DNA from: Pararhodobacter oceanensis
Lineage (GTDB): Bacteria > Pseudomonadota > Alphaproteobacteria > Rhodobacterales > Rhodobacteraceae
Assembly (NCBI RefSeq): GCF_003076755.1
Contig: NZ_QDKM01000005.1
Location: forward strand, 62,001 to 126,000
Direction: 5' to 3'
Length of the DNA stretch: 64,000 nt
Below the pieces are notes generated by a model. That model was given only the letters and a program-made list of their open reading frames with translations. It did no database searches and was not told the origin of the DNA. Below, piece after piece: positions 4,303 to 21,605 of this stretch; the first letter of the stretch is position 1; each line of letters starts with the position of its first letter. A program made the position numbers and the translations under genes.

Positions 4303-5468
4303 TTCACGCGCTCCAGAATCGAGCAGTAATTCGCCACCGCCGCGCCGCCCATGTTGAACACGCCGCCCAGTCGTGCGCCGCTGATCTGCATGTCGCCCGC
4401 CTCACCGGCGAGCTGCATCGCGGCCATCACGTGTTGCGAGACGCCGGTGGCGCCGATCGGGTGGCCCTTGGATTTCAAGCCGCCCGAGGGGTTCACCGGC
4501 AATCTGCCATCTTTGGTGGTGACGCCGTCGCGGATCACGCGGTGGCCTTGGCCGCGCTCGGCCAGACCCATGGCCTCATATTCGATCATTTCGGCGACGG
4601 TGAAACAATCGTGGGTTTCGACAAAGCTGAGATCGTCGATGGCGAGACCGGCGCCGTCCAAGGCACCGGCCCAGGCTTTGCGCGCGCCGGTGAAATCGAG
4701 GATATCGCGGCGCGAGAGGGGCAGGAAATCATTCGCCTGAACGCGCGCACGGAAGGCAATCGCGCGGTTGAGCGTGGCGGCGGTTTCCGCGTCGGCGAGG
4801 ACCAGAATCGCCGCCCCGTCCGAGACCAGCGAGCAATCGGTGCGCCGCAGCGGCCCCGCAACATGGGGGTTTTTGTCCGACGGCGTGTTGCAAAACTCGA
4901 AGCCGAAATCCTTGCGCATATGGGCATAAGGGTTGGCCATGCCATTGGCATGGTTCTTGGCGGCGATCATTGCCAGCGCGTCGGATTGATCGCCGTATTT
5001 CTGGAAATAGCTGCCCGCGATCTTGCCAAACAGTCCGGCGAAACCGGCGGGGACATCGGCTTCTTCGGCGACATAGGAGGCGCCGAGGAGGATGTCGCCG
5101 ACCTCTGCGGTGGGTGTGGCGCTCATTTTCTCGGCGCCGACCACCAAGGCGATGCGCCCGCGACCTGATTCGATGAAATCCATCGCGCCATAGAGTGCGG
5201 CGGAACCGGTGGCGCAGGCGTTTTCATAGCGGATCGCGGGGGTGTGGCGCAGGCGCTCATCGGCCAGCGCGACCAAGGCCGCCTGAAAATCCTGCCGCGA
5301 GAAGCCGTTGTTGAAAACACCGACAAAAATGCCGTCGACATCCTCGGCACCGATGCCTGCGTGTTCAAGCGCGGGGGCGAGCACCTCGGCGATCAGATGT
5401 TCGGTGTCGGGCTGGTCGGATTTGCCGAATTTGGAGTGGCTCCAACCGACGATCTGGGCGTTTGTCAT
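4299..5468 (-). CDS. SCP-x/SCP2-type thiolase (acetyl-CoA acetyltransferase family)
   Basis: The 389-residue protein carries the nucleophilic Cys in ENACATGSAAL, the motif VETHDCFTVAEMIEYEAMGL typical of SCP-x-type thiolases, and GHPIGATGVSQ near the C-terminus with the catalytic His. It ends in a GG-rich loop (FNMGGAAVANY) rather than the CxG of classical thiolases. The family cleaves 3-ketoacyl-CoA or catalyses related Claisen chemistry. The ATG at 5468 was chosen because AAAGGA lies at a good distance upstream; the frame stays open 13 codons further with no ribosome site. It is the first gene of the thiolase-ligase-PPC operon and is divergent from a GT2 gene across about 150 bp. The physiological substrate is unknown. 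Confidence 0.85.
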   Translation of the reverse strand: MTNAQIVGWSHSKFGKSDQPDTEHLIAEVLAPALEHAGIGAEDVDGIFVGVFNNGFSRQDFQAALVALADERLRHTPAIRYENACATGSAALYGAMDFIESGRGRIALVVGAEKMSATPTAEVGDILLGASYVAEEADVPAGFAGLFGKIAGSYFQKYGDQSDALAMIAAKNHANGMANPYAHMRKDFGFEFCNTPSDKNPHVAGPLRRTDCSLVSDGAAILVLADAETAATLNRAIAFRARVQANDFLPLSRRDILDFTGARKAWAGALDGAGLAIDDLSFVETHDCFTVAEMIEYEAMGLAERGQGHRVIRDGVTTKDGRLPVNPSGGLKSKGHPIGATGVSQHVMAAMQLAGEAGDMQISGARLGGVFNMGGAAVANYCSILERVK

Positions 5469-5619
5469 GGCGAAATCCTTTGTGTTTTGCGCGAGAATGC
5501 AACACATTTATCTGCTAATAACCAGAGGATGCGCGCATTTTCCTTGCGCGCCGGACCAGAGCCGCGCCTGCCGTGGCTGCCAGAATGTGCCGGATACGCC
5601 GGATCAAAGAGTTCACCGA

Positions 5620-6585
5620 ATGCCGAAATCCGCGCAGACATTGACGATTGACGCCGTGGCCATCGGCCGCAACGAGGGCGCGCGGTTGCAGGCCTGTCTG
5701 GCCTCGCTGACGGGCGAGGTGCGGCGGGTGGTCTATGTCGATAGCGGCTCGAGTGATGGCAGTGTCGAGGCGGCGCTTGCGATGGGCGCGCAGGTGGTGG
5801 CGCTGGATATGAGCCTGCCGTTTACTGCCGCGCGGGCGCGCAATGCGGGGCTGGCGGCGCTGGCGGATGACCCGCCGGATTTCGTGCAATTCATCGACGG
5901 TGATTGCGCGCTGCGCGAGGGCTGGATCGCGCGCGGGCGGCAGTTTTTGCATGACAATCTGGGCGCGGCGGTGGTTTGCGGGCGGCGGCGTGAGCGGTTC
6001 CCCGAGGCGAGCCTCTATAACGCGATGATCGATGCGGAATGGGACACGCCGGTGGGCAAGGCGACGGCTTGCGGCGGCGATGCCCTGATGCGCTATCAGG
6101 CGGTGAGTTCGGTGAAAGGGTTCCGCGAGGATCTGATTGCGGGGGAGGAGCCGGAATTGTGTCTGCGGCTGCGCTCGCATGGGTGGAGCATCTGGCGGAT
6201 TGATGCGGAAATGACATGGCATGACGCCGAAATGATGCGGTTTGGCCAATGGTGGCGACGGGCCGAGCGGGCGGGGCATGCCTTTGCCGAGGGGGCGGCG
6301 CGGTTTTCGACGACGCGTAGCCCGCATTGGACGCGCGAGGTGCGGCGGATCTGGATCTGGGGGCTGGCGCTGCCGCTGATTGCGCTGGTCGGGTCGCTGC
6401 TGCATCCGGCGGCGCTGCTGCTGTTGCTGGCCTATCCGCTGCAGGTGCTACGCCTGCAGGGGGCGATGGGCTGGCGCGGGGCGTTTTTCAACACGCTGGG
6501 GAAATTCCCCGAGGCGATGGGCGCGCTGCGGTTTTATGCGCGGCGGATCGGACGCGGTGAGGCGCGGTTGATCGAATATAAGTGA
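5620..6585 (+). CDS. Glycosyltransferase family 2, membrane-anchored
   Basis: This 321-residue protein starts at an ATG giving MPKSAQTLTID; the frame is open upstream but lacks GT2 sequence there. The N-terminal GT-A domain shows VAIGRNEGARL, YVDSGSSDGS, the DxD metal motif in FIDGDC (Asp93 and Asp95), and a GEEPELCLRLRSHGW acceptor-side motif. Two hydrophobic stretches near residues 240-275 anchor it in the inner membrane. It should transfer a nucleotide-sugar residue to a lipid-linked or polysaccharide acceptor. It lies tail to tail with a WecG-type transferase, consistent with a polysaccharide locus. Donor and acceptor cannot be inferred. Confidence 0.85.
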   Translation: MPKSAQTLTIDAVAIGRNEGARLQACLASLTGEVRRVVYVDSGSSDGSVEAALAMGAQVVALDMSLPFTAARARNAGLAALADDPPDFVQFIDGDCALREGWIARGRQFLHDNLGAAVVCGRRRERFPEASLYNAMIDAEWDTPVGKATACGGDALMRYQAVSSVKGFREDLIAGEEPELCLRLRSHGWSIWRIDAEMTWHDAEMMRFGQWWRRAERAGHAFAEGAARFSTTRSPHWTREVRRIWIWGLALPLIALVGSLLHPAALLLLLAYPLQVLRLQGAMGWRGAFFNTLGKFPEAMGALRFYARRIGRGEARLIEYK

Positions 6586-6586
6586 G

Positions 6587-7336
6587 TTAACGTTGCTGCA
6601 TAGCGCGCAGGGCCTCCGACGGCAGAATTAACGCGCATTCGGCATAGCGTTTGGCCAGACGGCGGGGATTGCTGAGCATGCGCCAGAGCCACTCCATCGC
6701 GATGCGGCGCACCCATTTTGGCGCACGTTTCTGGCGACCGGCGAGGAAATCAAGGCTGGCACCGATCGAGGCGAAGCCGATCTGCGGGGTGAGGTCGCGG
6801 CCCAGCGCGGCGAAGGCTTCTTGCTTGGGGGCGCCGAGCGCGATGAACACCAGCCGCGCGCCGGACGCCTCGATCTCATGCAAGATAGCGCGGGCCGCAT
6901 CGCCGCCGGGGTCAAAGCCCATCGGCGGGGCGATGGTGGCGGCGACCTCTAGGCCCGGGATGCGGGATTTGAGTGCTGCGGCGGCGGCTTTGAGCGCGGG
7001 ATCGGTGGAGCCCATCAGCGCCACGGGCACATTGTTGGCAGCGGCGAGTTCAGCCAGAGGCAGCACCAGATCGGAGCCGGGGACCAGAGACACGGGTTTG
7101 CGCGCGAGTCTGGAAAGCCAGACCACCGGATTGCCATCGGCGCAGACCAGATCCTGCGCGGCGTAGGCACGGCGAAACCCTGCATCGCGACGCAGTTTCA
7201 CCAGATGATCGAGGTTGATCGTGGCCAGCGCATAGCCCGTGCGCGCCCGCATCCGCCTGCCGACCTCGGCCAGCAGCGTCGCGCGATCCGGCATATTCAC
7301 GGTGATCTGATCCGGTGGAAATGAAAACTTCATCAA
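6587..7336 (-). CDS. WecG/TagA/CpsF-family glycosyltransferase (GT26)
   Basis: The 249-residue protein matches the GT26 family in length and motifs: ATINLDHLVKLRRD near the N-terminus, the conserved CADGNPVVW region with the catalytic Asp, GSTDPALKAAA, IALGAPKQE and GFASIGASLDFLAGRQKRAPKW. GT26 enzymes add an N-acetylmannosaminuronate-type or related sugar to an undecaprenyl-linked acceptor, as in enterobacterial common antigen, teichoic acid or capsule synthesis. ATG at 7333 is an equally possible start. It is convergent with the GT2 gene (1-bp gap) and divergent from the Wzy-like gene across 192 bp, in which I could not define a promoter with confidence. Confidence 0.88.
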   Translation of the reverse strand: MMKFSFPPDQITVNMPDRATLLAEVGRRMRARTGYALATINLDHLVKLRRDAGFRRAYAAQDLVCADGNPVVWLSRLARKPVSLVPGSDLVLPLAELAAANNVPVALMGSTDPALKAAAAALKSRIPGLEVAATIAPPMGFDPGGDAARAILHEIEASGARLVFIALGAPKQEAFAALGRDLTPQIGFASIGASLDFLAGRQKRAPKWVRRIAMEWLWRMLSNPRRLAKRYAECALILPSEALRAMQQR

Positions 7337-7528: not shown

Positions 7529-9043
7529 ATGATCCAGATCGGCAATTCATTTGCCCTGCTGGCGCTGCTCGGCTGGCCGCTGGTGGCGGTGATGCTGTTC
7601 AAGCGCCTGCCGCTGGAACGGGCGTTGATCTGGTCGATCCTTGCCGCCTATATGTTCCTGCCGCAGGTCAGCGAGATCAATCTGCCGGCGATCCCTGCCT
7701 TTGATAAGGTGACGATCCCCAATCTGATGGCTTTTGCGCTGTGTCTCGGGATCTGGGGCAAGCGGCCCGATATTGTCCCGCAAAGCATCGCCGGACGTAT
7801 CCTGTTGGTGATGTTCATTGTCAGCCCTGCGATCACCGTTTTGACCAACCTCGAGCCGGTGGAATTTGGCGTTGACCAGTTCGGCTCGCTGCGGCTGGTT
7901 GATCCGAATGCGCTGGAGCGTTGGGGGCTGCCGGGGCTGCGGGTTTACGATTCGCTGTCGGCGCTGGCGCAGCAGGTGTTCCTGATGCTGCCGTTCTTTC
8001 TGGCGCGGGCGGTGCTGCGCTCTGAGGCGGCGATCCGCGAGATCCTACTGGCGCTGGTCATCGCGGGGGCGATCTATGCGCTGCCGATGCTCTGGGAAGT
8101 GCGGTTTAGCCCGCAGCTACACACGCAGGTTTACGGGTTCTTCCAGCACTCTTTTGCGCAGGCGATGCGGGACGGCGGGTTCCGGCCCTTCGTGTTCATG
8201 CCACATGGGCTTTGGGTGGCGTTTTTTGCCTTTATGTGCGCCATGGCCGCCGCCGCTTGGGTCCGCGACTCCAAGGTCCGTGACCGCGGCAAACGGCTGA
8301 TGATACTGGGCCTGATGGCGCTCTTGGTGGTGATCTGCAAATCCTTGGGCGCGCTGGTGTTCACGCTGGCTTTCGTGCCGATGGTGCTGCTGTTCAAACC
8401 GCGGGTGAATGTCACCATCGCGGCGGGTCTGGCGGTGCTGGTGCTGGCCTATCCGCTGCTGCGCGGCTCGGGCGTTGTGCCGACCCAGCAGATGGTCGCC
8501 AGCCTCGCGCCGCATAACGCCGAGCGCGCGCAATCCTTGGAATACCGCTTTGACAACGAGGATGACATTCTGGCCCATGTCGAGGCGAAACCGCTGTTCG
8601 GCTGGGGCGGTTGGGGGCGGTTCATGGTCTATGATCCGCGCACCGGCGAGTCGCAAACCGTGGTTGACGGGCAATGGATCATCACCATCGGGCATTACGG
8701 CTGGCTGGGGTTTATCGCGCTGTTTGGCCTGCTGGCGATGCCACTGCTCGGGCTCTGGTGGCAGGCGCGCAAACCGCAGGCGCCGCCGATCCCCGTGGCG
8801 GTCAGCACATTGGCGCTGATCCTTGCGGTGAATATGGTCGATCTGCTGCCCAATGCGACGCTGATCCCGTTCACATGGCTGATGGCGGGGGCGCTGTTGG
8901 GCTATGTCGAGGACCTGCGCCACGCCAATAAAGCCGCCCGCGCCGCCAATCTGCGTAAGGCCCATGCCGGTGTGGTGCTGGGGGTGCCGACCTTGGTGCC
9001 GCCGGAACCGGAGGCGCCAAAGGCGAGGCGCTCGGTGTTGTGA
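7529..9043 (+). CDS. Wzy/O-antigen-ligase-like polytopic membrane protein
   Basis: This 504-residue protein has about ten hydrophobic segments and a large polar loop near residues 320-375 (RFDNEDDILAHVEAKPLFGWGGWGRF). The position and the GWG-rich character of that loop resemble the periplasmic loop of O-antigen ligases and Wzy polymerases. It ends in a soluble, Ala- and Pro-rich tail. Its likely role is polymerisation or ligation of undecaprenyl-linked oligosaccharide in the inner membrane. It lies just upstream of the PKS gene (98-bp gap), so polysaccharide and secondary-metabolite genes adjoin. Wzy-type proteins share little sequence, so the class rests on topology and context. Confidence 0.7.
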   Translation: MIQIGNSFALLALLGWPLVAVMLFKRLPLERALIWSILAAYMFLPQVSEINLPAIPAFDKVTIPNLMAFALCLGIWGKRPDIVPQSIAGRILLVMFIVSPAITVLTNLEPVEFGVDQFGSLRLVDPNALERWGLPGLRVYDSLSALAQQVFLMLPFFLARAVLRSEAAIREILLALVIAGAIYALPMLWEVRFSPQLHTQVYGFFQHSFAQAMRDGGFRPFVFMPHGLWVAFFAFMCAMAAAAWVRDSKVRDRGKRLMILGLMALLVVICKSLGALVFTLAFVPMVLLFKPRVNVTIAAGLAVLVLAYPLLRGSGVVPTQQMVASLAPHNAERAQSLEYRFDNEDDILAHVEAKPLFGWGGWGRFMVYDPRTGESQTVVDGQWIITIGHYGWLGFIALFGLLAMPLLGLWWQARKPQAPPIPVAVSTLALILAVNMVDLLPNATLIPFTWLMAGALLGYVEDLRHANKAARAANLRKAHAGVVLGVPTLVPPEPEAPKARRSVL

Positions 9044-9141: not shown

Positions 9142-12100
9142 ATGCCGATGTCCGCCACTCCCCCGCCCGAAACGTCCGAGACCGATATCGCGATTGTCGG
9201 CATGGCCGCGCAATTGCCCGGCGCCGCATCGATTGACGAATACTGGCACAATCTGCGCCACGGGCTGCGCGCGATCCGGCGCCTGTCCGAGGAAGAACTG
9301 CTGGCGGCGGGTGAAGATCCGGCGTTGATGCGGCAGGGCAATTATGTCCCTTTTGCCGCGCATTTGGAGGGGTTCGCCGAGTTTGACGCCGAGTTCTTCG
9401 GGTTTTCACCGAAAGAGGCCGCAATCCTCGACCCGCAGCACCGTAAATTCCTTGAGGTCGCATGGCAGGCGCTGGAAAACGCCGGCACCGTTCCCGCGCG
9501 GTTTGACGGCAATATCGGCGTCTATGCGGGCTGCGGCATGGGCAGCTATTTCTATTTCAACCTGTGCAGTAACCGCGATCTGGTGCGCGATGTCGGCATG
9601 TTCCTGTTGCGCCATACCGGCAATGACAAGGATTTCCTCGCCACCCGCGTTAGCCATATTTTCGATCTGCGCGGCCCCTCGGTGAATGTGCAGACGGCGT
9701 GCTCGACTTCGCTGGTGGCGCTGCATTACGCGGTGCAGGCGCTGCTCAGCGGCGAATGCGATCTGGCGCTGGCCGGCGGGGTGACCATCGAGCTGCCACA
9801 GGGGCGCGGGTATCTCTACCGCGAGAATGAGGTGCTCAGCCCCGATGGCGAGTGTCACGCGTTCGACCACCGCGCGCAGGGCACGGTGTTTGGCTCGGGC
9901 GCGGGCTGTGTGGCGCTGAAACGGCTGGAGGATGCCGAGCGCGACGGCGATCATATCTGGGCGGTGGTCAAAGGCTCGGCGATCAACAATGACGGCGCGC
10001 AAAAGGCGGGGTATCTGGCGCCCTCGGTCGAGGGGCAGGCGGGGTGCATCGCCGAAGCGCAGGCGATGGCCGACACGCCCGCCGCGACGATTGATTACAT
10101 CGAGTGCCATGGCACCGGCACCTATCTGGGCGATCCGATCGAGGTTGAGGCGCTGACTGAGGCGTATCGGCAGACAACGCAGGCCACGGGGATCACCCGC
10201 ATCGGCTCGGTCAAGACCAACATCGGGCATCTGGACACGGCGGCGGGCGTGGCCAGTCTGGTGAAAGTGGCGCTGTCGCTGCATCACCGCGAGTTGCCGC
10301 CCTCGCTGGGCTATGAGGCGCCGAATCCGACGATTGATTTTGACGCATCGCCATTTGTGGTGAATGACCGGTTAACCCCGTGGCAGGAGGGTGCGCATCC
10401 GCGGCGCGCGGGGGTCAACTCATTGGGGGTCGGCGGCACCAATGCCCATGCGGTGTTGCAGGAGGCGCCCGCGCGGGCGGCATCGGACGAAAGCGATTGG
10501 CCGTTTCAATTACTGACCCTGTCGGCGCGCTCAAAAACCACATTGGACGCGCAATCTGGCAATCTGGCGGAGTATCTGCGCGGTTGTGATCACAATCTGG
10601 CCGATGTCGCATGGACCCTGCAAGAGGGGCGGCATGCCTTTGACAAACGCCGTGTGGTGGTGGCCGAGAGCGCCGAAGAGGCCGCCGAATTGCTGAAGGC
10701 GGACAACCCGCTGCGGGTGTTCACCCATTCTGCGCTCGACAACCCCGATGTGGTGTTTCTCTTCCCCGGTGGCGGTGCGCAATATGCCGGTATGGCCCGC
10801 GATCTTTACGAGACCGAGCCGGTGTTTGCCGAATGGATGGACCGCGGGCTGGAAATCCTGCAGCCCAAGCTCGACTACGACATCCGCGCGCTCTGGCTGC
10901 CCGAGGCGGGAGATGAGGCCACCGCCGATGCGGCGCTGAAAAAACCCTCGGTGCAATTGCCGCTGATCATGATCACCGAATACGCGCTGGCGCAGATGTT
11001 TATCGCTTGGGGCGTGCGGCCCGCGGCGCTGCTGGGTCATTCGATGGGTGAGAATACCGCCGCCTGTCTGGCCGGTGTGATCACATTCGAGGATTGCATC
11101 GGATTGGTGCATTTGCGCGGCACATTGTTTGACACGGTGCCCTCGGGCGGGATGCTGTCGGTGCCGTTGTCACTGGCGGCACTGCGGCCTTATCTGGGCG
11201 ATCTGGACGTGGCCAGCGTTAATGCGCCGGAACTGACGGCGGTCTCCGGCCCCGATGCGGCGCTTGAGGCGCTGGCCGAAAAACTGCGCGCCGACGGGAT
11301 CGAAAGCCAGCGCATTGCCATCGATATTGCCGCGCATTCACGTATGTTAGAGCCTATTTTAGCCCGTTTTCGCGCCTATCTGGCGTCGATCCCGCTGAGC
11401 GCACCGCGCATTCCGGTGATCTCGAATACCACCGGCCAGCCGCTGAGTGATGCGCAGGCGACAAGCCCCGAGTATTGGACGGCGCATCTGCGCGGCACGG
11501 TGATGTTTGCCGATTGCGTGACCCATCTGGCGCAAGAGAAGAACCGCATCTGGCTGGAAGTCGGGCCGGGCAAGGCGCTGTCATCCTTAGTGCGGATGCA
11601 CGGCGATGTGCCACCGCAACAGGTGCTGGCGGCGCTGCGCCACCCCGAGGAAGATATCGCCGATGACCTCTATCATATGGGGCTGTTGGGGCGGATCTGG
11701 GCCTTGGGCGGCACATTCGATTGGGCGCAGATTTGGGGCGAAGCGCGGCGGGTGAAGCTGCCGCTGCCGACATATCCCTTTGATCGGCGCGAGTATTTCA
11801 TCGCACCGGCGCAGGCGCGGGATGATGTGATCACGAAAGAACCGGCGCGGATCGAAGCTGTCGCCGATATGGGCACGCGGCTGACCTTTGTGCCGCGGTC
11901 TGCCGAACTGGCGTTTGACGTCGAGACGGAGTTGGACGGTGCCGAGCCGCAGGTTTGGCTCGTGTTCACCGATCAAGAGGGGATCAGCGCGCCCCTGATC
12001 GCCCGTCTGCGCGCCGCCAAACACCGCGTGATCGAGGTGCAGGCGGGCGACACCTTCCGCCGCCGCACTGACAGTCTCTATTCGCTGCCTACGGAACGCG

Positions 12101-15100
12101 GGCGCGAAGGATATGACCAGTTAATTCAAGACCTTGTGCAGCGCGGCACGATCCCCACCCGCATCGCGCATTTCTGGCTGGCGGGGGGCGAAGAACGGTT
12201 TCGCGCGGGCTCGAATGCGTTTCAGGCGCATATCGAGCGCGGGTTTTACGCGCTGATGTTCCTTGGCCAGGCGATTGCCGGTGAGGGGCTCTCCGCGCCG
12301 CTGCATATCACTGTGATCACATCCGGCGCGGCGCAGGTGCGCGATGAAGCGCTGCGCTGGCCGGAAAAGGCGATGATTGCCGGACCGGCGCGGGTGATCC
12401 CGCGCGAGGCGCCGGAAATCACCGTCGCGACGCTGGATATCGAGCCGCGCAGTCGCAAGCGTGGCGGGCATGGGGATCTGATCCTGCCGCTGTTGGAGGA
12501 ATTGCTGGCGGAACCGGCGAATACCGTGGCCGCATTGCGTGGCGGCAAGCGGTATGAGCAGCGGTTGCGCCCGCAGGTGCTTGAGGTAGCGCCGCAATTG
12601 CCACAGGGGGCGGCTTGGGTGATCACCGGTGGCTTTGGTGGCATCGGTTTGAGCGTGGCGGAGGCGTTGATTGGGGCCTCGGGGGCGAAGATCGCGCTGA
12701 TTTCGCGCACAAAGCTGCCCGACCGCGCGGAATGGCCCGGCATTAAGGACAATCCCGCCGATCCGGTCGCGCGGCGGATTCTGGCGGTGGAGCGGCTGGA
12801 AGCGCTTGGCGCCGAGGTGATGATCGCCGCGGCAGATGTGTGCAATATCAACGAGATGCGCGGCGCTCTTGACGCGGTGCGCGCAAGGTTTGGTGGGGTC
12901 CACGGGGTGGTGCATGCGGCGGGGGTGATCGACGACGCGCCGCTTTTGGCGAAAACCGTGGGCAGCGTCGAAAGCGTGTTCGCGCCCAAGGTGCACGGGC
13001 TCAGGGTGCTTGACGCGCTGCTGCCCGATGGCGCGGTGGAACAGATCGTGGTCTTTGCCTCGACCTCGACGCTGACCGCTCCGGCGGGGCAGGTCGATTA
13101 TGTGGCGGCGAATGAATATCTCAACGCCTGGGCGCGGGCGCGGGCGGGCGGAAAAACCCGTGTCTTGGCGCTGAATTGGGGCATCTGGGCCGAGGTGGGC
13201 ATGGCCGCCGAGGCGATGGCCAGCCGCTTGGGCAACGGGCCAAAATTGCCCGAAACACCAGTGTTAGAGCCGCTTTTGGACGCGGCGGGCTTTGATGCGC
13301 AGATGAATAGGCAGTTCTCGGCGACATATTCCACCGATATGTGGCTGCTGGATGAACACCGCACCAAGGACGGGCGCGCGCTGATGCCCGGCACCGGCAT
13401 GTTGGAGATCGCTTTGCAGGCGCTGCAGGCGCAGGGCGAGGTGGCACCGTTTGAAATTGAGGATCTGACCTTCTTTCGCCCGCTGGATGTAGCGGTGCCG
13501 CGCGAGATCAGGGTGACGCTGGAGCGATCAGATGCGGGCTATGAGTTTGCGCTGCGCTCGGATGTGACGTTGAACGGGCGCGCGGGCTATGCGTTGAACG
13601 CGCAGGCGCAGATTGACATGCGTGAGATGGAGCCGCCCGCGCCGCTGAATATCGCAGCGATTTCAGCGCGTTGTGCGCGGGATATTGCCGAGGATGTGCA
13701 AGGCATGGCCACCGGACAGGAGGCGCATCTGGCGTTCGGGCCGCGCTGGCGGGTGTTGCAACGGCGCGCTTATGGCGCGGGCGAGGGGCTTGCGCATCTG
13801 GCTCTGCCGCAGGCGTTTCACGGCGATCTGGAGGCCGGCTATATCCTGCATCCGGCGCTGATGGATATCGCCACCGGCTGGGCGATGGGGTTGATCGACG
13901 GTTATACGGGCGAGAGCCTTTGGGTGCCGGTGTCCTACGGGCGCGTGCGGGTGTTTTCCGCCTTGCCCGCGCGGATCGTCAGCCATGTGCGGATTGCCGA
14001 AGCCGAGCCGGGATTTGCGACATTTGATATTACGCTGGCCGCGCCCGATGGGCGGGTTTGCGCGGAGATCGAGCGGTTTACCATCAAGCGGATGGCGGGC
14101 GGACTGGGGACTCCGGCGCCTTTGCTGCCCTCGGAAGTACAGTTTGACGCGGTGGAGGGTGCCGACCGTGCGCTGAGCCCCGCCGAGGAGCGTCTGGCGC
14201 GCAATCTGGCGCAGGGGATCACCCCGCGCGAGGGTGGCGAGGCGTTTTTGCGGGCGCTTGGGGTGGAGCAGTCGCAAGTGGTGATTTCGTCTCTAACGCT
14301 GCCAGAGTTGATCGCCGAGGCGGGGCAGGTGATGCAGGAGGCGGGCGAGGGCGGGCAGAAGTTCGAGCGCCCTGATCTCGATGGTGCCTATGTCGCGCCG
14401 CGCAATGATGTGGAGCGTATGCTGGTCGGCATCTGGGAGGATTTGCTGGGCGTTGAGGGGATCGGGGTTGAGGATAGTTTCTTTGATCTCGGTGGCCATT
14501 CCCTGATCGCGGTGCGGCTGTTTGCGCGGGTGAAAAAGACCTGGGCGGTGGATTTCCCGATCTCGGTGTTGTTCGAGGCGCCGACAGTGGAGAAGATCGC
14601 CGCGCGGGTGGCGCAGGTGGCGGGGATCAGTGAGACCGGCGATGCGCCTGCGGCTGTGGCTCCGGTGCGGCGGTTTGAATATCTGGTGCCGATGCATGAG
14701 GGCGAGGGCGGGGTGAAAACGCCGTTCTTCCTTGTTGCAGGGATGTTCGGCAATGTGCTGAACCTGCGACAACTGGCGCAGCTTCTGGGCGCGGACCGGC
14801 CGTTTTACGGATTGCAGGCGCGCGGGCTGATGGGCGATGCGGCGCCGCATAACCGCCTGCAGGAGGCGGCGCGCGACTATCTGGTGGAACTGCGGCAGGT
14901 GCAGCCCAAAGGGCCCTATCTGCTGGGCGGGTTTTCGGGCGGCGGGCTGACCGCGCTGGAAATGGCGCATCAACTGCGGGCTGAGGGCGAGGAGGTGCAG
15001 CTTTTGGCCCTGCTCGATACGCCGCTGCCGCTGCGTCCCACGTTAAGCCGCGTGGATAAGGCGATGATTAAACTACAGGAATTTCGCCGCAAGGGGCCCG

Positions 15101-15492
15101 GGTATCTGGCGGAATGGCTGCAGGCGCGGCGCGATTGGCAAGAGGAATTGGCGCGGATTGCGCAGGATTCCTCGGGCGAATGCGCCAGCGGGTTCCAGAA
15201 CCGCGCGATTGAGGCGGCGTTTCGCGAGGCGCTGCCGCATGTTGAACTGCGCCCCTATGAGGGCCGCGTGGCGCTGTTCCGCCCGCCGCTGGATCGTCAT
15301 TGGCGGGTGACGGGCGGGCATTGGGTCAGCCGCGAAAAAGAATATGTCTATGAGGACAACCAGTGGTCGGCGTGGATGCCTGCGCTTTCGGTGCATGAGG
15401 TGCCGGGCGATCACGATTCCATGGTGCTGGAACCCAATGTGCGGGTGATGGCATCGACCCTGCGAGATTTAATTGCCGAGGCCGAGATATGA
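9142..15492 (+). CDS. Type I polyketide synthase, KS-AT-KR-DH-ACP-TE
   Basis: This 2116-residue single-module PKS has every catalytic residue I looked for. KS has Cys187 (QTACSTSL), His323 (ECHGTGT) and His363 (TNIGHLD). AT has Ser634 (GHSMGE) and His732. A structural KR half is followed by KR with TGGFGGIG at 1162-1169 and Tyr1320/Asn1324. DH has His1406 and Asp1575 (HPALMD). ACP has Ser1787 (GGHSL). TE has Ser1932 (GFSGG) and His2091. KR precedes DH, unlike the usual DH-(ER)-KR order, and there is no ER. The chain is therefore expected to be extended once, reduced, dehydrated to an enoyl thioester and released by the TE. The AT motif (IAAH) is not diagnostic for malonyl versus methylmalonyl. 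ATG at 9148 is an alternative start. The stop overlaps the next gene by 4 bases. Confidence 0.93.
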   Translation: MPMSATPPPETSETDIAIVGMAAQLPGAASIDEYWHNLRHGLRAIRRLSEEELLAAGEDPALMRQGNYVPFAAHLEGFAEFDAEFFGFSPKEAAILDPQHRKFLEVAWQALENAGTVPARFDGNIGVYAGCGMGSYFYFNLCSNRDLVRDVGMFLLRHTGNDKDFLATRVSHIFDLRGPSVNVQTACSTSLVALHYAVQALLSGECDLALAGGVTIELPQGRGYLYRENEVLSPDGECHAFDHRAQGTVFGSGAGCVALKRLEDAERDGDHIWAVVKGSAINNDGAQKAGYLAPSVEGQAGCIAEAQAMADTPAATIDYIECHGTGTYLGDPIEVEALTEAYRQTTQATGITRIGSVKTNIGHLDTAAGVASLVKVALSLHHRELPPSLGYEAPNPTIDFDASPFVVNDRLTPWQEGAHPRRAGVNSLGVGGTNAHAVLQEAPARAASDESDWPFQLLTLSARSKTTLDAQSGNLAEYLRGCDHNLADVAWTLQEGRHAFDKRRVVVAESAEEAAELLKADNPLRVFTHSALDNPDVVFLFPGGGAQYAGMARDLYETEPVFAEWMDRGLEILQPKLDYDIRALWLPEAGDEATADAALKKPSVQLPLIMITEYALAQMFIAWGVRPAALLGHSMGENTAACLAGVITFEDCIGLVHLRGTLFDTVPSGGMLSVPLSLAALRPYLGDLDVASVNAPELTAVSGPDAALEALAEKLRADGIESQRIAIDIAAHSRMLEPILARFRAYLASIPLSAPRIPVISNTTGQPLSDAQATSPEYWTAHLRGTVMFADCVTHLAQEKNRIWLEVGPGKALSSLVRMHGDVPPQQVLAALRHPEEDIADDLYHMGLLGRIWALGGTFDWAQIWGEARRVKLPLPTYPFDRREYFIAPAQARDDVITKEPARIEAVADMGTRLTFVPRSAELAFDVETELDGAEPQVWLVFTDQEGISAPLIARLRAAKHRVIEVQAGDTFRRRTDSLYSLPTERGREGYDQLIQDLVQRGTIPTRIAHFWLAGGEERFRAGSNAFQAHIERGFYALMFLGQAIAGEGLSAPLHITVITSGAAQVRDEALRWPEKAMIAGPARVIPREAPEITVATLDIEPRSRKRGGHGDLILPLLEELLAEPANTVAALRGGKRYEQRLRPQVLEVAPQLPQGAAWVITGGFGGIGLSVAEALIGASGAKIALISRTKLPDRAEWPGIKDNPADPVARRILAVERLEALGAEVMIAAADVCNINEMRGALDAVRARFGGVHGVVHAAGVIDDAPLLAKTVGSVESVFAPKVHGLRVLDALLPDGAVEQIVVFASTSTLTAPAGQVDYVAANEYLNAWARARAGGKTRVLALNWGIWAEVGMAAEAMASRLGNGPKLPETPVLEPLLDAAGFDAQMNRQFSATYSTDMWLLDEHRTKDGRALMPGTGMLEIALQALQAQGEVAPFEIEDLTFFRPLDVAVPREIRVTLERSDAGYEFALRSDVTLNGRAGYALNAQAQIDMREMEPPAPLNIAAISARCARDIAEDVQGMATGQEAHLAFGPRWRVLQRRAYGAGEGLAHLALPQAFHGDLEAGYILHPALMDIATGWAMGLIDGYTGESLWVPVSYGRVRVFSALPARIVSHVRIAEAEPGFATFDITLAAPDGRVCAEIERFTIKRMAGGLGTPAPLLPSEVQFDAVEGADRALSPAEERLARNLAQGITPREGGEAFLRALGVEQSQVVISSLTLPELIAEAGQVMQEAGEGGQKFERPDLDGAYVAPRNDVERMLVGIWEDLLGVEGIGVEDSFFDLGGHSLIAVRLFARVKKTWAVDFPISVLFEAPTVEKIAARVAQVAGISETGDAPAAVAPVRRFEYLVPMHEGEGGVKTPFFLVAGMFGNVLNLRQLAQLLGADRPFYGLQARGLMGDAAPHNRLQEAARDYLVELRQVQPKGPYLLGGFSGGGLTALEMAHQLRAEGEEVQLLALLDTPLPLRPTLSRVDKAMIKLQEFRRKGPGYLAEWLQARRDWQEELARIAQDSSGECASGFQNRAIEAAFREALPHVELRPYEGRVALFRPPLDRHWRVTGGHWVSREKEYVYEDNQWSAWMPALSVHEVPGDHDSMVLEPNVRVMASTLRDLIAEAEI

Positions 15493-16433
15493 GCCGAGTT
15501 CTTTGCGTCATACTCAACTGGCGCACGCCCGAGATGACCCTGCGCGCGGCGCGCTCTGCGCTGGCGGCGATGGAGGGGATCGAGGGCGCGATCACCATTG
15601 TCGATAACGACAGCGGCGATGGCTCGTTTGAGACAATGCGCGCGGCAGCGGCGGAGTGGCCACGGGTGCAGGTGCTGCAATCGGGGCGCAATGGCGGGTT
15701 TGGTGCGGGCAATAACTTTGGCATTCGCGCCGGATTGCCCGACGGATCGCAGCCCGATTTTATCTATGTGCTCAACTCCGATGCGTTTCCGGCAGAGGAT
15801 GCGATTAAGCAATTGCTGGGTCACTTGATCGCCCATCCCGAGGTGGGGTTTGCTGGCAGTTATATCCACGGCGAGGATGGGGGGCCGCACACCACGGCGT
15901 TCCGCTTTCCCTCGATTGCCTCGGAGTTTGAGGGGGCGGCAAAGACCGGACCGATCTCGCGACTGTTGAAACACGCGATTGTTGCGCCGGCGCTGCCCGA
16001 GGAAACGACGCGGGTGGGCTGGATGGCCGGTGCCAGCGTGTTGATGCGACGCGAGGTGCTTGATGAGATCGGGCTGTTTGATGAGCGGTTTTTCCTCTAT
16101 TTTGAGGAAACCGACCTGTGTTTGCGCGCCACGCGGGCCGGTTGGGCGATGGATTACGTGGTGGAAAGCCGCGTGATGCATATCGGCTCGGTCAGCACAG
16201 GGATGCGCGATTGGGCGCGGGTGCCGGACTATTGGTTCGCCTCAAGACGGTATTATTTTGAGAAAAACCACGGGCGGATTTATGCCGGCATGGCGACCCT
16301 CGCGCATCTGGCGGGGCTGGGGATTTATGGCCTTCGCGTGATTTTGCAGCGCAAGAAACCCCATACACCGCCATATTTTGCCCGCGATCTTATGCGACAC
16401 AGCTGGCGATCGCGTATGTCCCAGGAGAGTTAG
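15489..16433 (+). CDS. Rhamnosyltransferase-like family 2 glycosyltransferase
   Basis: The 314-residue protein opens with VILNWRTPEMT, then NDSGDGS, a VLNSDAF metal-site motif, and the signature GASVLMRREVLDEIGLFDE...YFEETDLCLRATRAGW seen in WbbL-type rhamnosyltransferases. It lies inside the biosynthetic operon: its ATG overlaps the PKS stop (ATGA), and the NRPS begins one base after its stop. This suggests that the PKS/NRPS product is glycosylated, or that the product is attached to a glycan, but an unrelated polysaccharide role cannot be excluded. The sugar donor is not predictable. A weakly hydrophobic stretch near residues 255-280 may touch the membrane. Confidence 0.85.
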   Translation: MSRVLCVILNWRTPEMTLRAARSALAAMEGIEGAITIVDNDSGDGSFETMRAAAAEWPRVQVLQSGRNGGFGAGNNFGIRAGLPDGSQPDFIYVLNSDAFPAEDAIKQLLGHLIAHPEVGFAGSYIHGEDGGPHTTAFRFPSIASEFEGAAKTGPISRLLKHAIVAPALPEETTRVGWMAGASVLMRREVLDEIGLFDERFFLYFEETDLCLRATRAGWAMDYVVESRVMHIGSVSTGMRDWARVPDYWFASRRYYFEKNHGRIYAGMATLAHLAGLGIYGLRVILQRKKPHTPPYFARDLMRHSWRSRMSQES

Positions 16434-16434
16434 T

Positions 16435-19400
16435 ATGACCTCGTTTTCGTGTGTAATGATCGGCAATCAATCCTTGGTGGTTGAATGCGCCAAGCTGGTT
16501 TTGGCGCGCGGCCACCGGATCGCGGCGATCGCCAGCGACAACGCCGATGTTCTGGCCTGGGCCGAGGGCGAGGGGCTGCCGGTCGTGGCGCCGGATTCGG
16601 ATTTGGACGCGCGGATTACCGGCGGGTTTGACTGGCTGTTGTCGATTGCCAACCTGAGGGTGCTGCCCGATGCGCTGCTGGCGCGGGCCGCCAAGGGTGC
16701 GGTGAATTTCCACGATGGGCCACTGCCGCGCTACGCCGGTTTGAACGCGCCGATCTGGGCGCGGCTCAAGGGCGAGGTGCAGCACGGGATCACCTGGCAT
16801 ATGATCGACGGCGGGGTCGATGAGGGGGATATCCTTGCGCAGGTGGCGTTCGATATCACCGAAGAGGACACGGCGTTTTCGCTGAATGCGCGCTGTTTTG
16901 GCGCGGCGATCGAGAGTTTTCCGCGGGTTTTGGACGCGCTGGAGCAAGGCGCGCCCGAGCGGCAGGCGCAGGATCTGACGCAGAGGACGGTCTGCGGGCG
17001 CAATGACCGGCCCGCAGCGGCGGCGCGGCTGGATTTCGCGCAGCCGGTGGCAGAACTGGTGCGGCTGGTGCGGGCGCTCGATCACGGTGGGTATTGGAAC
17101 CCGCTGGCCTTGCCGAAAATCGAAACATCCGCGGGGGTTTTTGCGGTGACCTCTGCCGAACCGGTGGCGGGCACCGGCGTGGCGGGCACGGTTTTGGACT
17201 GTGGTGAAGCGTTAACCGTCGCTTGCGCGGATGGTGCCGTGCGGTTGAGCGGGTTGACCACGTTGGACGGCGTGGCGGTCGCGGCGCAGGATATCGCGCA
17301 GGAAGGTGAGGTGTTGCCCGCCCCAAATGCGGCGCTATTGGATGAGGTGATCGCCCGTGTGACGCCGGGCGAGGCGCGTTGGCGCCGTGTGTTAACCGGA
17401 TTTGCCGCAGCCGAGGCGCCGAGCGCGCGCGGCGCGGCGGAAGGCATCGCAACGCGCGAGATTGCAGGCCTGTCGGCGCATCAGGCGGCGGCGATTATCG
17501 CCAGCTATGCGCCGGGCGGTTGGGCCTATGCCGCGGCGGAGACGCAGGATTTGTTCGCAGCGGCGCCCAGATATCTAAGCGATTGGTTGCCGATGGTGCT
17601 GGAGGGCGAAACGCTGGCGGCGCTGGAAGAGGGCATTGCAGCGACGCAGCGGAGGGCGGAGAGATCGCCCAGTTTCGCGCGCGATCTGATTGGCCGTGAT
17701 CCGGCGCTTGATCCGCTGGAAACGCCTGCGTTCGGCCTGTCGGAGAGCCATGCGCGGATTGACGGCACGGCGCTTTGTGTGGTGGCGGGGCCGGAGGGGG
17801 TGAGCCTCTCGGCGGATCTTGGTAAATGCGACGCGGCGCTGCTGGAAATCTATGCCGCGCGGTTGGAATTATTGGCGCAGGCGGATCGTGAAGCACCGGT
17901 TGCGGAACTGGAGCGGATCAGCGCGCCCGAGCGGGAGATCCTTGCGACGCTGAACGCCACCGAGCGGGCGTTTGACAACCGCACGATCTCGCGCTTGTTC
18001 GAAGCGCAGGTGGCGAAAACCCCCGATGCGACCGCGCTGGTGTTTGAAGGCCAGAGCCTGAGCTATGCGGCGCTGAATGCGCGCGCCAACCGTGTCGCGC
18101 ATGTGCTGCAGGAGATGGGGATCACGCCAGATACGCCGGTGGCGCTGTGTTCGAAACGCGCGCCGGATTTGCTGATCGGGGCGCTGGGGATTTTGAAAGC
18201 CGGTGGTGCCTATGTGCCGATGGACCCCAGCTATCCGGCGGACCGGCTGCGGCATTTTCTGCGCGACAGCGGCGCGCCGGTGATTGTCACGCAATCGGGG
18301 CTGATTGACGCGCTGCCTGAACATAGCGCCGAACTCTTGGTGCTGGATACCGACACGCGGCTGGCGGCGGCCCCGGAGGCGAACCCCGAGAGCGGTGCCA
18401 CGCCCGAAAACCTTGCCTATCTGATCTATACCTCGGGTTCGACCGGTCTGCCGAAGGGCGTGATGGTCGAACACCGCAATGTGGCGAATTTCTTTGCCGG
18501 GATGGACGAGCGCATCGCCCATGAGGCGGGCGGTGTCTGGCTGGCGGTGACTTCGCTGTCCTTTGATATCTCGGTGCTCGAGCTGTTCTGGACCCTGTCG
18601 CGCGGTTTTAAACTGGTTCTGACCTCGGACGAAAGCCGCATGGAAGTCTCGGGCGGCGCCCTGCCAATCACCGAAAAGCGTATGGATTTCAGCCTGTTCT
18701 ACTGGGGCAATGACGATGGCGCGGGGCCGAAGAAATACGAGTTGCTGCTGGAAGGCGCGAAGTTTGCCGATAGTCACGGGTTTCGCGCGGTTTGGACGCC
18801 CGAGCGGCATTTCCATGCCTTCGGCGGGCCGTTCCCCAACCCCTCGGTGACCGGCGCGGCGGTGGCGGCGGTGACGCAGAATATCGACGTGCGCTCGGGC
18901 TCTTGCGTGGCGCCGCTGCATCATCCGCTGCGCATCGCCGAGGAATGGGCGGTGATCGACAATCTGACCAACGGGCGCGCGGGGCTGGGCATTGCCTCGG
19001 GCTGGCATCCGGTGGATTTTGTGCTGCGGCCGGAGAATTCGGTGCCAAATAACAAGGCGGCGATGTTCGACACCATTGAGAAACTGCGCAAGCTATGGCG
19101 CGGCGACGAGGTGGCGTTTGACCATAATGGCGAGACGCGGGTGGTGACCTCATTGCCGCGTCCGGTGTCCAAGGAATTGCCGCTCTGGCTGACCATTGCC
19201 GGCAACCCCGACACCTGGCGCGAGGCAGGCGAGATTGGCGCGAATGTGCTGACGCATCTGCTTGGCCAGTCGATTGACGAGGTGGCGGGGAAGATCAAGA
19301 TTTACCATGAGGCGCTGAGCAAGGCGGGGCATGACCCCAAGGATTTCACAGTCACGCTGATGCTGCACACCTATGTTGCGCGCAGCCGTGAGTTGGCGCG

Positions 19401-20967
19401 TGAAACCGCGCGCGAACCGATGAAAAACTACCTTCTGGCGGCGGCGGGACTGGTCAAACAATACGCTTGGGCGTTTCCGGCGTTCAAGAAACCGGCGGGC
19501 GCCAAAAATCCGATGGATATCGACCTGAGTGCGCTCAGTCAGGATGAGGTCGACGGGATCCTCGAGTTTGCCTTTAACCGGTATTTCGAGGAGTCGGGGC
19601 TGTTTGGCACGGTCGAGGATTGCCTGCGCCGCACCGAGCAACTCAAGGCGATTGGTGTGGATGAGATCGGCTGTCTGATCGATTACGGCATCCCGACGGC
19701 GCAGGTGCTCGAGAGCCTCTATCCGCTGGCCGAGGTGCTGCGCCGCGCAAATGCGCCGGTGGAACTGGCGGCGGATGATGTGTCGTTGGCCGCGCAAATC
19801 CAGCGCCACGGCGTGACGCATCTGCAATGCACGCCCTCGATGGCGCGGATGCTGGTTGAGGATGAGCGCGCGCGCGCGGCCCTGACGCAGGTGCCGCATT
19901 TGCTGGTCGGTGGTGAGGCTTTGCCGGGTGCGCTGGCGGCGGAGCTGGCGCAGATCAGCGGGCAGGAGGTGGTTAACCTTTATGGGCCGACGGAGACCAC
20001 CATCTGGTCAACCAGCGAGACGACTTCGGGCGGTGACGGGGTGGTCGGGATCGGCGCGCCGATTGCCAATACCACGCTGCATATCCTCGATGAGGCACGG
20101 CGCGAGGTGCCGCTGGGGGCCATCGGCGAGTTGTGGATCGGTGGCGCGGGGGTGACGCGCGGTTATTGGCAGCGCGATGATCTGTCGGCGGATAGGTTTG
20201 TGGCCAATCCCTTTGGCGCGGGGCGGATTTACGGCACCGGCGATCTGGTGCGGCTTTGTGCTGATGGCACGGTGGATTTTCTGGGCCGTGCGGATCATCA
20301 GGTGAAGCTGCGCGGGCATCGGATCGAGCTGGGCGAGATCGAAAGCGCGCTGGATGCACAGCCGGGGGTGACCCAGAGCGTGGTGATCGCGCGCGAGGAT
20401 GTGCCCGGCGATATGCGGCTGGTCGGCTATGTGGTGGGCACGGCGGATGCGGCTGCATTGCGCGCGGCTTTGGCGGTGCGGTTGCCCGGGCATCTGGTGC
20501 CGGCGCATATCGTCAAGCTGGAGGCTTTGCCGCTGACGCCGAACAAAAAGATCGACCGCAAGGCGCTGCCGAAACCCGGGGTGCTGCGGCCCGCGGTGAT
20601 CGAGGCGCCGGTGGCGGCGAATGGCAGCGACACGCAGGAGAAGCTGGCGACGATCTGGCGCGGGGTGCTGGGCGTGGCGGAGGTGAAACCGGCGGATAAT
20701 TTCTTCATGCTGGGCGGGCATTCGCTGCTGGCGGTGCAGGCGCATCGTGAAATCCGCGAGGCGCTGGCGTTGCCCGGATTGTCGATCACCGATGTGTTCC
20801 GCTTTCCGGTGCTCTCGGCGCTGGCAGGGCATATTGACGGCAAGTTGAAGCCGCACCCTGCGGCGGGGGCTCCGGCAGTGGCGGAGGCGGGCGCCGCGAA
20901 GAGCCGCGCCGATGCGATGTCTCGGCGCCGCGCGATGCGGGCCGAACGGTTGAGCCGCTCGGGGTGA
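16435..20967 (+). CDS. Hybrid NRPS: formyltransferase - partial C - A with inserted luciferase-like monooxygenase - PCP
   Basis: This protein has 1510 residues; the start was set by AGGAGAG at 16423 and the ATG at 16435. About 1-300: formyltransferase fold with NFHDGPLPRY (Asn91, His93) and GGVDEGDI (catalytic-type Asp129). About 310-520: resembles only the C-terminal half of a condensation domain; no HHxxxDG occurs anywhere. Adenylation: A3 YTSGSTGLPKG at about 665, A4 FDIS at 710. Then a luciferase-like flavin monooxygenase (about 745-1105; begins RMDFSLFYWG, includes ASGWHPVDF), after which the A domain resumes with YGPTETT (1183), YGTGDLVR and NKKIDRK (Lys1372). PCP Ser is 1430 (GGHSL). 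The specificity positions read D711 I712 L715 Q1131 L1157 G1159 L1182 I1190 W1191 K1372, recalled as the glycine code. The monooxygenase resembles the MupA/Atu3671-type domain known from NRPS/PKS enzymes. The product is unknown. Confidence 0.9.
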   Translation: MTSFSCVMIGNQSLVVECAKLVLARGHRIAAIASDNADVLAWAEGEGLPVVAPDSDLDARITGGFDWLLSIANLRVLPDALLARAAKGAVNFHDGPLPRYAGLNAPIWARLKGEVQHGITWHMIDGGVDEGDILAQVAFDITEEDTAFSLNARCFGAAIESFPRVLDALEQGAPERQAQDLTQRTVCGRNDRPAAAARLDFAQPVAELVRLVRALDHGGYWNPLALPKIETSAGVFAVTSAEPVAGTGVAGTVLDCGEALTVACADGAVRLSGLTTLDGVAVAAQDIAQEGEVLPAPNAALLDEVIARVTPGEARWRRVLTGFAAAEAPSARGAAEGIATREIAGLSAHQAAAIIASYAPGGWAYAAAETQDLFAAAPRYLSDWLPMVLEGETLAALEEGIAATQRRAERSPSFARDLIGRDPALDPLETPAFGLSESHARIDGTALCVVAGPEGVSLSADLGKCDAALLEIYAARLELLAQADREAPVAELERISAPEREILATLNATERAFDNRTISRLFEAQVAKTPDATALVFEGQSLSYAALNARANRVAHVLQEMGITPDTPVALCSKRAPDLLIGALGILKAGGAYVPMDPSYPADRLRHFLRDSGAPVIVTQSGLIDALPEHSAELLVLDTDTRLAAAPEANPESGATPENLAYLIYTSGSTGLPKGVMVEHRNVANFFAGMDERIAHEAGGVWLAVTSLSFDISVLELFWTLSRGFKLVLTSDESRMEVSGGALPITEKRMDFSLFYWGNDDGAGPKKYELLLEGAKFADSHGFRAVWTPERHFHAFGGPFPNPSVTGAAVAAVTQNIDVRSGSCVAPLHHPLRIAEEWAVIDNLTNGRAGLGIASGWHPVDFVLRPENSVPNNKAAMFDTIEKLRKLWRGDEVAFDHNGETRVVTSLPRPVSKELPLWLTIAGNPDTWREAGEIGANVLTHLLGQSIDEVAGKIKIYHEALSKAGHDPKDFTVTLMLHTYVARSRELARETAREPMKNYLLAAAGLVKQYAWAFPAFKKPAGAKNPMDIDLSALSQDEVDGILEFAFNRYFEESGLFGTVEDCLRRTEQLKAIGVDEIGCLIDYGIPTAQVLESLYPLAEVLRRANAPVELAADDVSLAAQIQRHGVTHLQCTPSMARMLVEDERARAALTQVPHLLVGGEALPGALAAELAQISGQEVVNLYGPTETTIWSTSETTSGGDGVVGIGAPIANTTLHILDEARREVPLGAIGELWIGGAGVTRGYWQRDDLSADRFVANPFGAGRIYGTGDLVRLCADGTVDFLGRADHQVKLRGHRIELGEIESALDAQPGVTQSVVIAREDVPGDMRLVGYVVGTADAAALRAALAVRLPGHLVPAHIVKLEALPLTPNKKIDRKALPKPGVLRPAVIEAPVAANGSDTQEKLATIWRGVLGVAEVKPADNFFMLGGHSLLAVQAHREIREALALPGLSITDVFRFPVLSALAGHIDGKLKPHPAAGAPAVAEAGAAKSRADAMSRRRAMRAERLSRSG

Positions 20968-21605
20968 GCGGCGCGGCGCTGTCCGCGCTAATGGCGCAAG
21001 TTTTCCCGCCCGCAGTGGCGCGCGGGATCTGCGCGGTGGCGCGTGCGGATGTGGCGCGATTGTTTCACGTGGAACATTCTGCGGTCAAAAGCGCGGTGCC
21101 GGCGCGGCAGCGGGAATTCGCGGCGGGGCGGATCGCGGCGCGGGCAGCGATGGGGCGCGATTTGCCGGTGGTGATGGCAGAGGATCGCGCGCCGGTCTGG
21201 CCCGAGGGCATGGCCGGTTCGATCACTCATGCGGGCGGTTGGGCGCTAGCCGTGGCGGGCACGGCGGAGAGGTTGATCGGCATTGATCTGGAGGTTGACG
21301 CGGCGCTACCGGCAGAGGTCTGGGAGACCGTGTTGACCAATAGCGAGCGCGCTGCGCTGCGCGATATGCCCGATGTGGGGCGATGGGCGCGGGTGATTTT
21401 TAGCGCCAAGGAATGCGCCTATAAGGTGCAGTATCCGCGTTCAAATCAGGTGTTCGGGTTTGAGGTGTTCGAGGTGACGCTAGAACCCGATAGCGGCGTG
21501 TTTACCGCGGTTTTTCAACGGGATATCGCGCCGTTTGCGGCGGGCGATTGCCTGCGCGGGCGGTATTCAATCGGCGGCGGGTTTATCCTGACCGGCATCG
21601 CCTAG
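20964..21605 (+). CDS. 4'-phosphopantetheinyl transferase (Sfp/EntD type)
   Basis: This 213-residue protein has the family motifs GSITHAGG, IGIDLE (metal-binding Asp and Glu) and FSAKECAYK. It transfers phosphopantetheine from CoA to the Ser of carrier domains, here very probably Ser1787 of the PKS and Ser1430 of the NRPS. The GTG start at 20964 overlaps the NRPS stop by 4 bases, so it is the last gene of the operon and likely its dedicated activator. A parS site (21061-21076) lies inside the gene and encodes LFHVEH, an insertion-like stretch not expected for the family. The 3' end overlaps the convergent flavoprotein gene by 39 bases. Confidence 0.9.
   Translation: MSGAALSALMAQVFPPAVARGICAVARADVARLFHVEHSAVKSAVPARQREFAAGRIAARAAMGRDLPVVMAEDRAPVWPEGMAGSITHAGGWALAVAGTAERLIGIDLEVDAALPAEVWETVLTNSERAALRDMPDVGRWARVIFSAKECAYKVQYPRSNQVFGFEVFEVTLEPDSGVFTAVFQRDIAPFAAGDCLRGRYSIGGGFILTGIA
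21061..21076. promoter_or_regulatory. parS site (ParB-binding centromere), copy 1
   Basis: TGTTTCACGTGGAACA; its reverse complement is TGTTCCACGTGAAACA, the classical Bacillus parS consensus. It differs at one position from the perfect palindrome seen three more times in the window. It lies within the phosphopantetheinyl transferase gene, about 10 kb from parA/parB. Confidence 0.85.

Follow-up and report, generated by a model that had tools for sequence, protein, structure and literature searches.

A putative glycine-loading starter protein and a single-module polyketide synthase encoded in exopolysaccharide loci of Rhodobacterales

Clusters in which a polyketide synthase (PKS), a glycosyl transferase, a nonribosomal peptide synthetase (NRPS) and a phosphopantetheinyl transferase (PPTase) are encoded together have been described before. 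The sections available from PMC5014874 report such a cluster, credited to Martens et al. 2007, as 'conserved amongst roseobacters' and its product as unidentified, and those of PMC10584327 list an unknown hybrid NRPS-like/T1PKS type in 18 species of 37 genomes studied. The same four gene types stand together in the DNA analysed here, a stretch of 64,000 nucleotides from Pararhodobacter oceanensis (contig NZ_QDKM01000005.1, positions 62,001 to 126,000), hereafter the window. The gene sizes in the R. domitiana table of PMC10584327 fit the window operon in a comparison by size, not sequence, and a contig (L048) of Leisingera sp. JC1, the strain of PMC5014874, encodes an NRPS with 57% identity over residues 20-1516 as well as a PPTase, its PKS being cut by the contig end. 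Since the roseobacter cluster was already described, the operon itself is not new; a first, sequence-only reading of the window knew of no characterised product for this layout, which our literature search bears out as regards the product, although the cluster type was on record. Among the titles and abstract openings retrieved, none names a product or ties the cluster to exopolysaccharide. Compared with the cluster as the excerpts of PMC5014874 describe it, we add the domain chemistry, with a glycine code and a putative formylated, glycine-oxidising starter logic, and a linkage to polysaccharide genes, and we find relatives of the operon beyond the roseobacters, on Hyphomicrobiales plasmids and in other alphaproteobacteria.

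The operon was verified with the coordinates, gene order and + strand given by the sequence-only reading, and the open reading frames (ORFs) and Pfam/NCBIfam matches agree with the gene set and domain content proposed there:

9142..15492, + strand: type I PKS of 2116 aa, ketosynthase (KS)-acyltransferase (AT)-(ketoreductase prefix)-ketoreductase (KR)-dehydratase (DH)-acyl carrier protein (ACP)-thioesterase (TE) by Pfam/NCBIfam
Within the PKS, + strand: KS 9181-10314, AT 10753-11592, KR 12613-13194, DH 13270-14094, ACP 14422-14610, TE 14728-15489
15489..16433, + strand: GT2 glycosyltransferase (PF13641/PF00535)
16435..20967, + strand: NRPS, formyltransferase (F)-adenylation (A, with inserted monooxygenase)-peptidyl carrier (PCP), 1510 aa from ATG; start in the ORF list, TTG 16378
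20964..21605, + strand: Sfp-type 4'-phosphopantetheinyl transferase (PF17837/PF01648)

The genes had been said to abut or overlap by 4 bases. This holds for PKS and GT2 (15489-15492) and for NRPS and PPTase (20964-20967); between the GT2 stop (16433) and the likely NRPS start codon there is a gap of 1 base and no overlap. The NRPS probably begins at ATG 16435 and not at TTG 16378. The GT2 does belong to a glycosyltransferase family, but its description as rhamnosyltransferase-like is weak (TIGR01556, 45 bits against a cut-off of 200), and a PDB sequence search with it gave zero matches at E 0.001. A second close relative of the NRPS is absent from the genome, the next best match scoring 68 bits.

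Scanning the species-genome collection yielded 354 matching stretches; 338 encode relatives, and the best 80 were kept. These are titled with Rhodobacterales genera or families, except L033 ('Proteobacteria bacterium') and L061 ('Nocardioides marinus'); the latter carries a typical Rhodobacterales-type locus at 57% identity and is possibly a mislabelled record. An ORF test found an NRPS relative in 79 of the 80 fetched loci, with a mean identity of 58%. The PKS lies directly upstream in all 69 loci with at least 9 kb of upstream sequence and the PPTase directly downstream in 75 of the 76 with at least 1.5 kb downstream, while a GT2 homolog is found in 69/69 flanked loci and stands directly before the NRPS in 55 of them under a strict position rule. 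Because NRPS, PKS and PPTase recur together across the fetched loci, the operon is not a chance arrangement. In an even sample of Rhodobacterales, 50 of 121 genomes carry the NRPS, one copy each, compared with 7 of 385 genomes sampled across the class, 5 of these 7 being from the window's own family; 17 plasmid records have one place covering at least 80% of the NRPS. Five distant genomes were examined, G400 and four from the order of G458, and in each of them the PKS gene immediately follows the NRPS gene, which supports the working order NRPS then PKS proposed earlier. Many marine and soil bacteria share this two-enzyme assembly line.

The sequence-only reading, otherwise partly supported, missed the polysaccharide-locus context of the operon. 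When the ORFs flanking the operon were clustered over the 80 loci and the window, the recurring neighbours were a flippase, a Wzz/XrtA-type chain-length protein, a BY-kinase-like ATPase, a Wzy-like protein, a WecG-type protein and several GT2 and GT4 glycosyltransferases. In the 121-genome sample, relatives of Wzx, of the chain-length protein and of Wzy occur in 63, 64 and 70 genomes; within 30 kb of the NRPS, in the 50 genomes that encode it, they occur in 39, 44 and 42, and at least one of the three in 49. The one genome left, G076, encodes the NRPS on a contig of 40 kb, where WecG- and kinase-like matches were found and XrtD stands 22 kb away. A Wzy relative is present in 50/50 genomes with the NRPS versus 20/71 without it (Fisher 6e-18 with relatedness ignored; 4.6e-8 at genus level). 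Moreover, the 42 best-scoring Wzx genomes and the 41 best-scoring chain-length genomes all encode the NRPS, so that one specific locus seems to be gained and lost as a whole. Eight NRPS-encoding genomes fall outside the best-scoring Wzx group, and in six of them XrtD lies 9-32 kb from the NRPS; these XrtD-near loci are a second kind of polysaccharide locus, and R. conchae also has an XrtD gene near the operon. A link to the XrtD/VPLPA-CTERM exosortase itself was considered and rejected: XrtD exceeds its cut-off in 10 of the 50 genomes with the NRPS versus 33 of the 71 without it and is therefore not part of the system, and no XrtD gene was found in the P. oceanensis genome. Outside Rhodobacterales, annotation places flippase, export, O-antigen ligase or glycosyltransferase genes next to PKS, NRPS and PPTase on Aminobacter and Shinella plasmids, with the PKS divergent, and tblastn detects like polysaccharide neighbours on a Neorhizobium plasmid and a flippase and a WecG relative in Rhizobium BG6. 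We conclude that, in Rhodobacterales, the operon belongs to an exopolysaccharide locus. Since it usually lies among surface-polymer genes, its product may be a polymer decoration and not a free antibiotic, and the reading that we prefer, at even balance, is that the dedicated PPTase and the two-protein assembly line build one small acyl unit for the exopolysaccharide.

Several observations weigh against this assignment. The genomes are related, so the co-occurrence tests overstate independence. Four genomes of the order of G458 encode NRPS-PKS, yet about 15-16 kb of sequence on each side of their NRPS gave no match with the polysaccharide queries; the module can therefore exist without the locus. 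The catalytic-position His of the F domain is Phe in 10/10 sequences from this order (L111-L120; NFFDG for NFHDG, remaining motif kept), and the F domain of this branch is possibly non-formylating. In G400, an epimerase, DegT, UDP-glucose dehydrogenase and GT4 lie within about 15 kb of the NRPS and a flippase match is absent. Of the 64 loci that extend 8 kb or more to each side, 6 lack all four markers. A TolC gene beside the Aminobacter PKS and type I secretion genes near the Shinella PKS are possible small-molecule or protein export genes. In P. oceanensis, tblastn found no initiating sugar transferase in L091, in L092 (just upstream of the window) or in the window; Bac_transf and Glycos_transf_4 had no match on the operon's own contig (C5), only on others; and the locus revealed no acyltransferase dedicated to the TE product.

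Some of these points would suit an operon that yields a free diffusible metabolite, such as formylamino- or oxo-crotonic acid or a glycoside, the polysaccharide genes being mere neighbours in a surface-lifestyle region. The TE could merely hydrolyse, the order of G458 offers copies without polysaccharide matches, two plasmid copies lie near TolC or type I secretion genes, and PMC5014874 and PMC10584327 place such clusters in secondary metabolism in the sections available. The polysaccharide linkage is nonetheless tight and recurs over different locus types and replicons, and the annotated recurring neighbours are of polysaccharide type without a small-molecule exporter, the non-recurring ones being mostly unannotated. 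We therefore regard a free metabolite as possible and still rather improbable.

At the P. oceanensis locus itself, Wzx flippase, kinase-like and glycosyltransferase genes lie just upstream of the window (L092), and the following genes precede the operon:

4..1146, + strand: Wzz/XrtA-type chain-length determinant-like protein, 3' part of a gene that begins upstream of the window (TIGR03007, 79.6 bits, below cut-off)
5308..6585, + strand: GT2 glycosyltransferase (PF00535; family in 36/81 clustered sequences)
6587..7336, - strand: WecG/TagA/CpsF glycosyltransferase (PF03808; TIGR00696 over cut-off)
7529..9043, + strand: Wzy/O-antigen ligase-like membrane protein (PF04932, 28.8 bits, below the cut-off of 31.7)

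Flippase, polymerase-like, chain-length and glycosyltransferase genes are thus co-located here, with the Wzy and chain-length matches below curated cut-offs. The true start of the GT2 at 5308..6585 is probably later than its TTG, because the match begins well inside the ORF. An AMP-binding ligase, a thiolase-like protein and a protein with weak resemblance to a PCC domain, all encoded on the - strand at 1862-5507, break into the polysaccharide locus; these genes are rarely matched in the fetched relatives, whose flanks often stop short of that region. Just after the PPTase, many loci encode a family without Pfam match (L042:17495-18439 and kin; 38/81 clustered sequences), whose predicted structure (pLDDT 91.6) shows an SGNH hydrolase fold and a hydrophobic helix at the N terminus. 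Ten PDB entries match it at E up to 0.001, including DUF4886, GDSL, CE2/CE3, PatB and the acyltransferase SsfX3, and the SGNH superfamily includes polysaccharide O-acyl transferases and esterases. No relative of this family was found in the window by tblastn. Upstream of the window, L092:5071-7200 encodes a 709-aa protein without Pfam match; along 546 residues it is 45% identical to a family member of 839 aa with an SGNH-like beginning.

The NRPS, the proposed starter protein, comprises the following parts:

16435..17301, + strand: F domain with C-terminal subdomain (Formyl_trans_N and _C; N91, H93, D129)
17350..17949, + strand: linker, protein residues 306-505, with a mean identity of 29% (other domains 44-75%), no consistent family match found
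17998..18639, + strand: A domain, N part (to A4; PF00501, A3 and A4 motifs)
18688..19737, + strand: luciferase-like monooxygenase inserted between A4 and A5 (TIGR04020)
19756..20550, + strand: A domain, C part (A5-A10), giving with the N part the code DILQLGLIWK
20638..20835, + strand: peptidyl carrier domain, S1430 (PF00550; 87/87 sequences)
20836..20964, + strand: C-terminal tail with a basic MxxRRxMR-type motif, a candidate docking element

We aligned 87 NRPS sequences, from the window and 86 of 87 loci (80 from the scan, six plasmid records and L093). The locus left out, L100, comes from a Paracoccus marcusii plasmid whose annotation separates F from A-monooxygenase-PCP, the two genes overlapping (L100:16013-20604), a natural fission or a frameshift; the edge of that region carries one more NRPS gene. 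The glycine code D-I-L-Q-[LMF]-G-[LM]-[IV]-W-K is found in 87/87 sequences, in line with the glycine start unit suggested earlier, and the F-domain N, H and D and the carrier Ser are invariant in all 87, so that the formyltransferase and carrier residues are intact, in support of the earlier reading. In the 1510-aa numbering, A4 is at 710, the inserted monooxygenase at about 752-1101 and A5 at 1181; the insert matches TIGR04020 (MupA/Atu3671 luciferase-like monooxygenases) with 470.2 bits against a curated cut-off of 244.45, as Bac_luciferase splitting the AMP-binding domain. The strict tail pattern occurs in 59 of 70 ORF tails, with variants recognised by eye in the other 11. The earlier claim that no condensation (C) domain is complete also stands: none is present in the window NRPS, and of 26 homologous N-terminal regions just one matched the Pfam Condensation profile, with E 0.29. 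A condensation-domain remnant in the linker was considered and found no support in Pfam; in structure searches the matches were taken up by the F domain and residues beyond 295 were barely covered. Judged from its domains, a glycine A domain with an inserted monooxygenase and a formyltransferase, without a condensation domain, is an unusual starter module.

Glycine modules with monooxygenases are known. As excerpted, PMC10204066 states that terminal modules of myxothiazol and melithiazol hydroxylate glycine, the peptide on glycine being released as an amide, and that the solanimycin glycine module SolF has a flavin monooxygenase, alpha-hydroxyglycine persisting in solanimycin B; SolF differs from the window NRPS in that its monooxygenase is inserted between A8 and A9 of an internal elongation module. 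The window NRPS resembles the myxothiazol and melithiazol modules in its glycine A domain with a monooxygenase between A4 and A5; unlike them, it lacks a C domain and a TE of its own, carries a formyltransferase instead and has the PKS next. Upstream condensation domain and release at the same module, as in those pathways, were therefore not found, the TE lying on the PKS. The terminal modules of the myxothiazol and melithiazol pathways are MtaG and MelG. By sequence, the nearest solved structure to the inserted monooxygenase is PuwE (6ket, E 4.6e-104), which the PMC4219810 excerpt proposes to help form the 3-amino-2-hydroxy acyl chain of puwainaphycin; unlike the window enzyme, PuwE is part of a PKS-NRPS hybrid protein, and its substrate is a fatty acyl chain.

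The N-terminal part raises the question of what is formylated. In fold, the F domain and its C-terminal subdomain resemble ArnA and sugar N-formyltransferases, and by sequence the domain is closer to FMT/ArnA (E about 1e-17) than to LgrA (E 2e-8), as would be expected if it formylated an amino sugar and not PCP-bound glycine, F and PKS-NRPS then being two separate polysaccharide decorations. However, 86 of 87 loci encode F, A and PCP in a single reading frame (L100 being the exception), and F-A-PCP in one frame is the layout of the LgrA initiation module, which starts with valine and has no monooxygenase. The window protein shows this initiation layout, with an N-terminal F domain bearing N, H and D followed by A and PCP without C; it is like LgrA (linear gramicidin) in layout and in its predicted formylation at the start, and unlike it in matching ArnA/FMT over both subdomains. 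Amino-sugar formylation thus seems very unlikely to us.

The PKS is likewise intact at the KS, AT, KR, DH and TE residues checked. In an alignment of 76 sequences (the window and 75 of 87 loci, 12 incomplete loci being left out), the active-site residues C187/H323/H363, S634, S1309/Y1320, H1406/D1575, S1787 and S1932/H2091 are invariant. The AT carries GHSMG and AAHS motifs (AAHSR in 72/76), which correspond clearly to neither of the textbook AT-specificity patterns.

The GT2, which the sequence-only reading took as perhaps glycosylating the product, has a looser tie to the system. No relative of it was found in the fetched stretches of three Hyphomicrobiales plasmids (L097, L099, L102), and on the fourth (L098) one lies about 12 kb from the NRPS; by these comparisons the operon GT2 is outside the core of the system on such plasmids. 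This bears on a further alternative, in which GT2 or TE attaches the acyl unit to a lipid carrier and not to a repeat unit, giving a lipid or glycolipid headgroup or a polysaccharide anchor or primer. The immediate precedence of the GT2 over the NRPS (55 of 69 loci under the strict rule), the polysaccharide context and the lack of an initiating transferase on the contig would fit such a product, whereas its absence from three of the four plasmid stretches and the poor suitability of a C4 unit as a membrane anchor argue against it, and we hold it to be unlikely.

In our preferred reading, an acyl unit made for the exopolysaccharide, the A domain would load glycine on the PCP, as its code predicts, and the F domain, from its fold and conserved residues, would N-formylate the bound glycine. 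By analogy with the myxothiazol/melithiazol and solanimycin modules, the inserted monooxygenase may then hydroxylate the alpha carbon to give N-formyl-alpha-hydroxyglycyl-PCP, a species that may be retained as such or may break down to glyoxylyl-PCP and formamide. The acyl group is predicted to pass in trans to the KS of the PKS and to undergo one malonyl-type extension, reduction by KR and dehydration by DH, giving a C4 enoyl unit. We infer that the TE either transfers this unit to a sugar or a lipid-linked repeat unit or hydrolyses it off for later activation, and that the surrounding Wzx, Wzz-like, Wzy-like and glycosyltransferase genes, with which the operon is associated, would serve the synthesis and export of the polysaccharide bearing it. 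More specifically, and here we are doubtful, the starter module would formylate and oxidatively unmask glycine so that one extension yields a reactive C4 unit, for example 4-oxocrotonyl, covalently installed on the exported exopolysaccharide, making the PKS-NRPS a polysaccharide decorator.

If the operon decorates an exopolysaccharide, searching small-molecule extracts for its product would mean looking in the wrong fraction, and the product could instead be tested by comparing the polysaccharides of wild-type and deletion strains. Modular PKS-NRPS systems would then be a source of polysaccharide substituents, and the glycine-oxidising module would gain a new use as a generator of starter units. 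Should the decoration be of the 4-oxocrotonyl type, a large share of Rhodobacterales would have a cross-linkable surface polymer.

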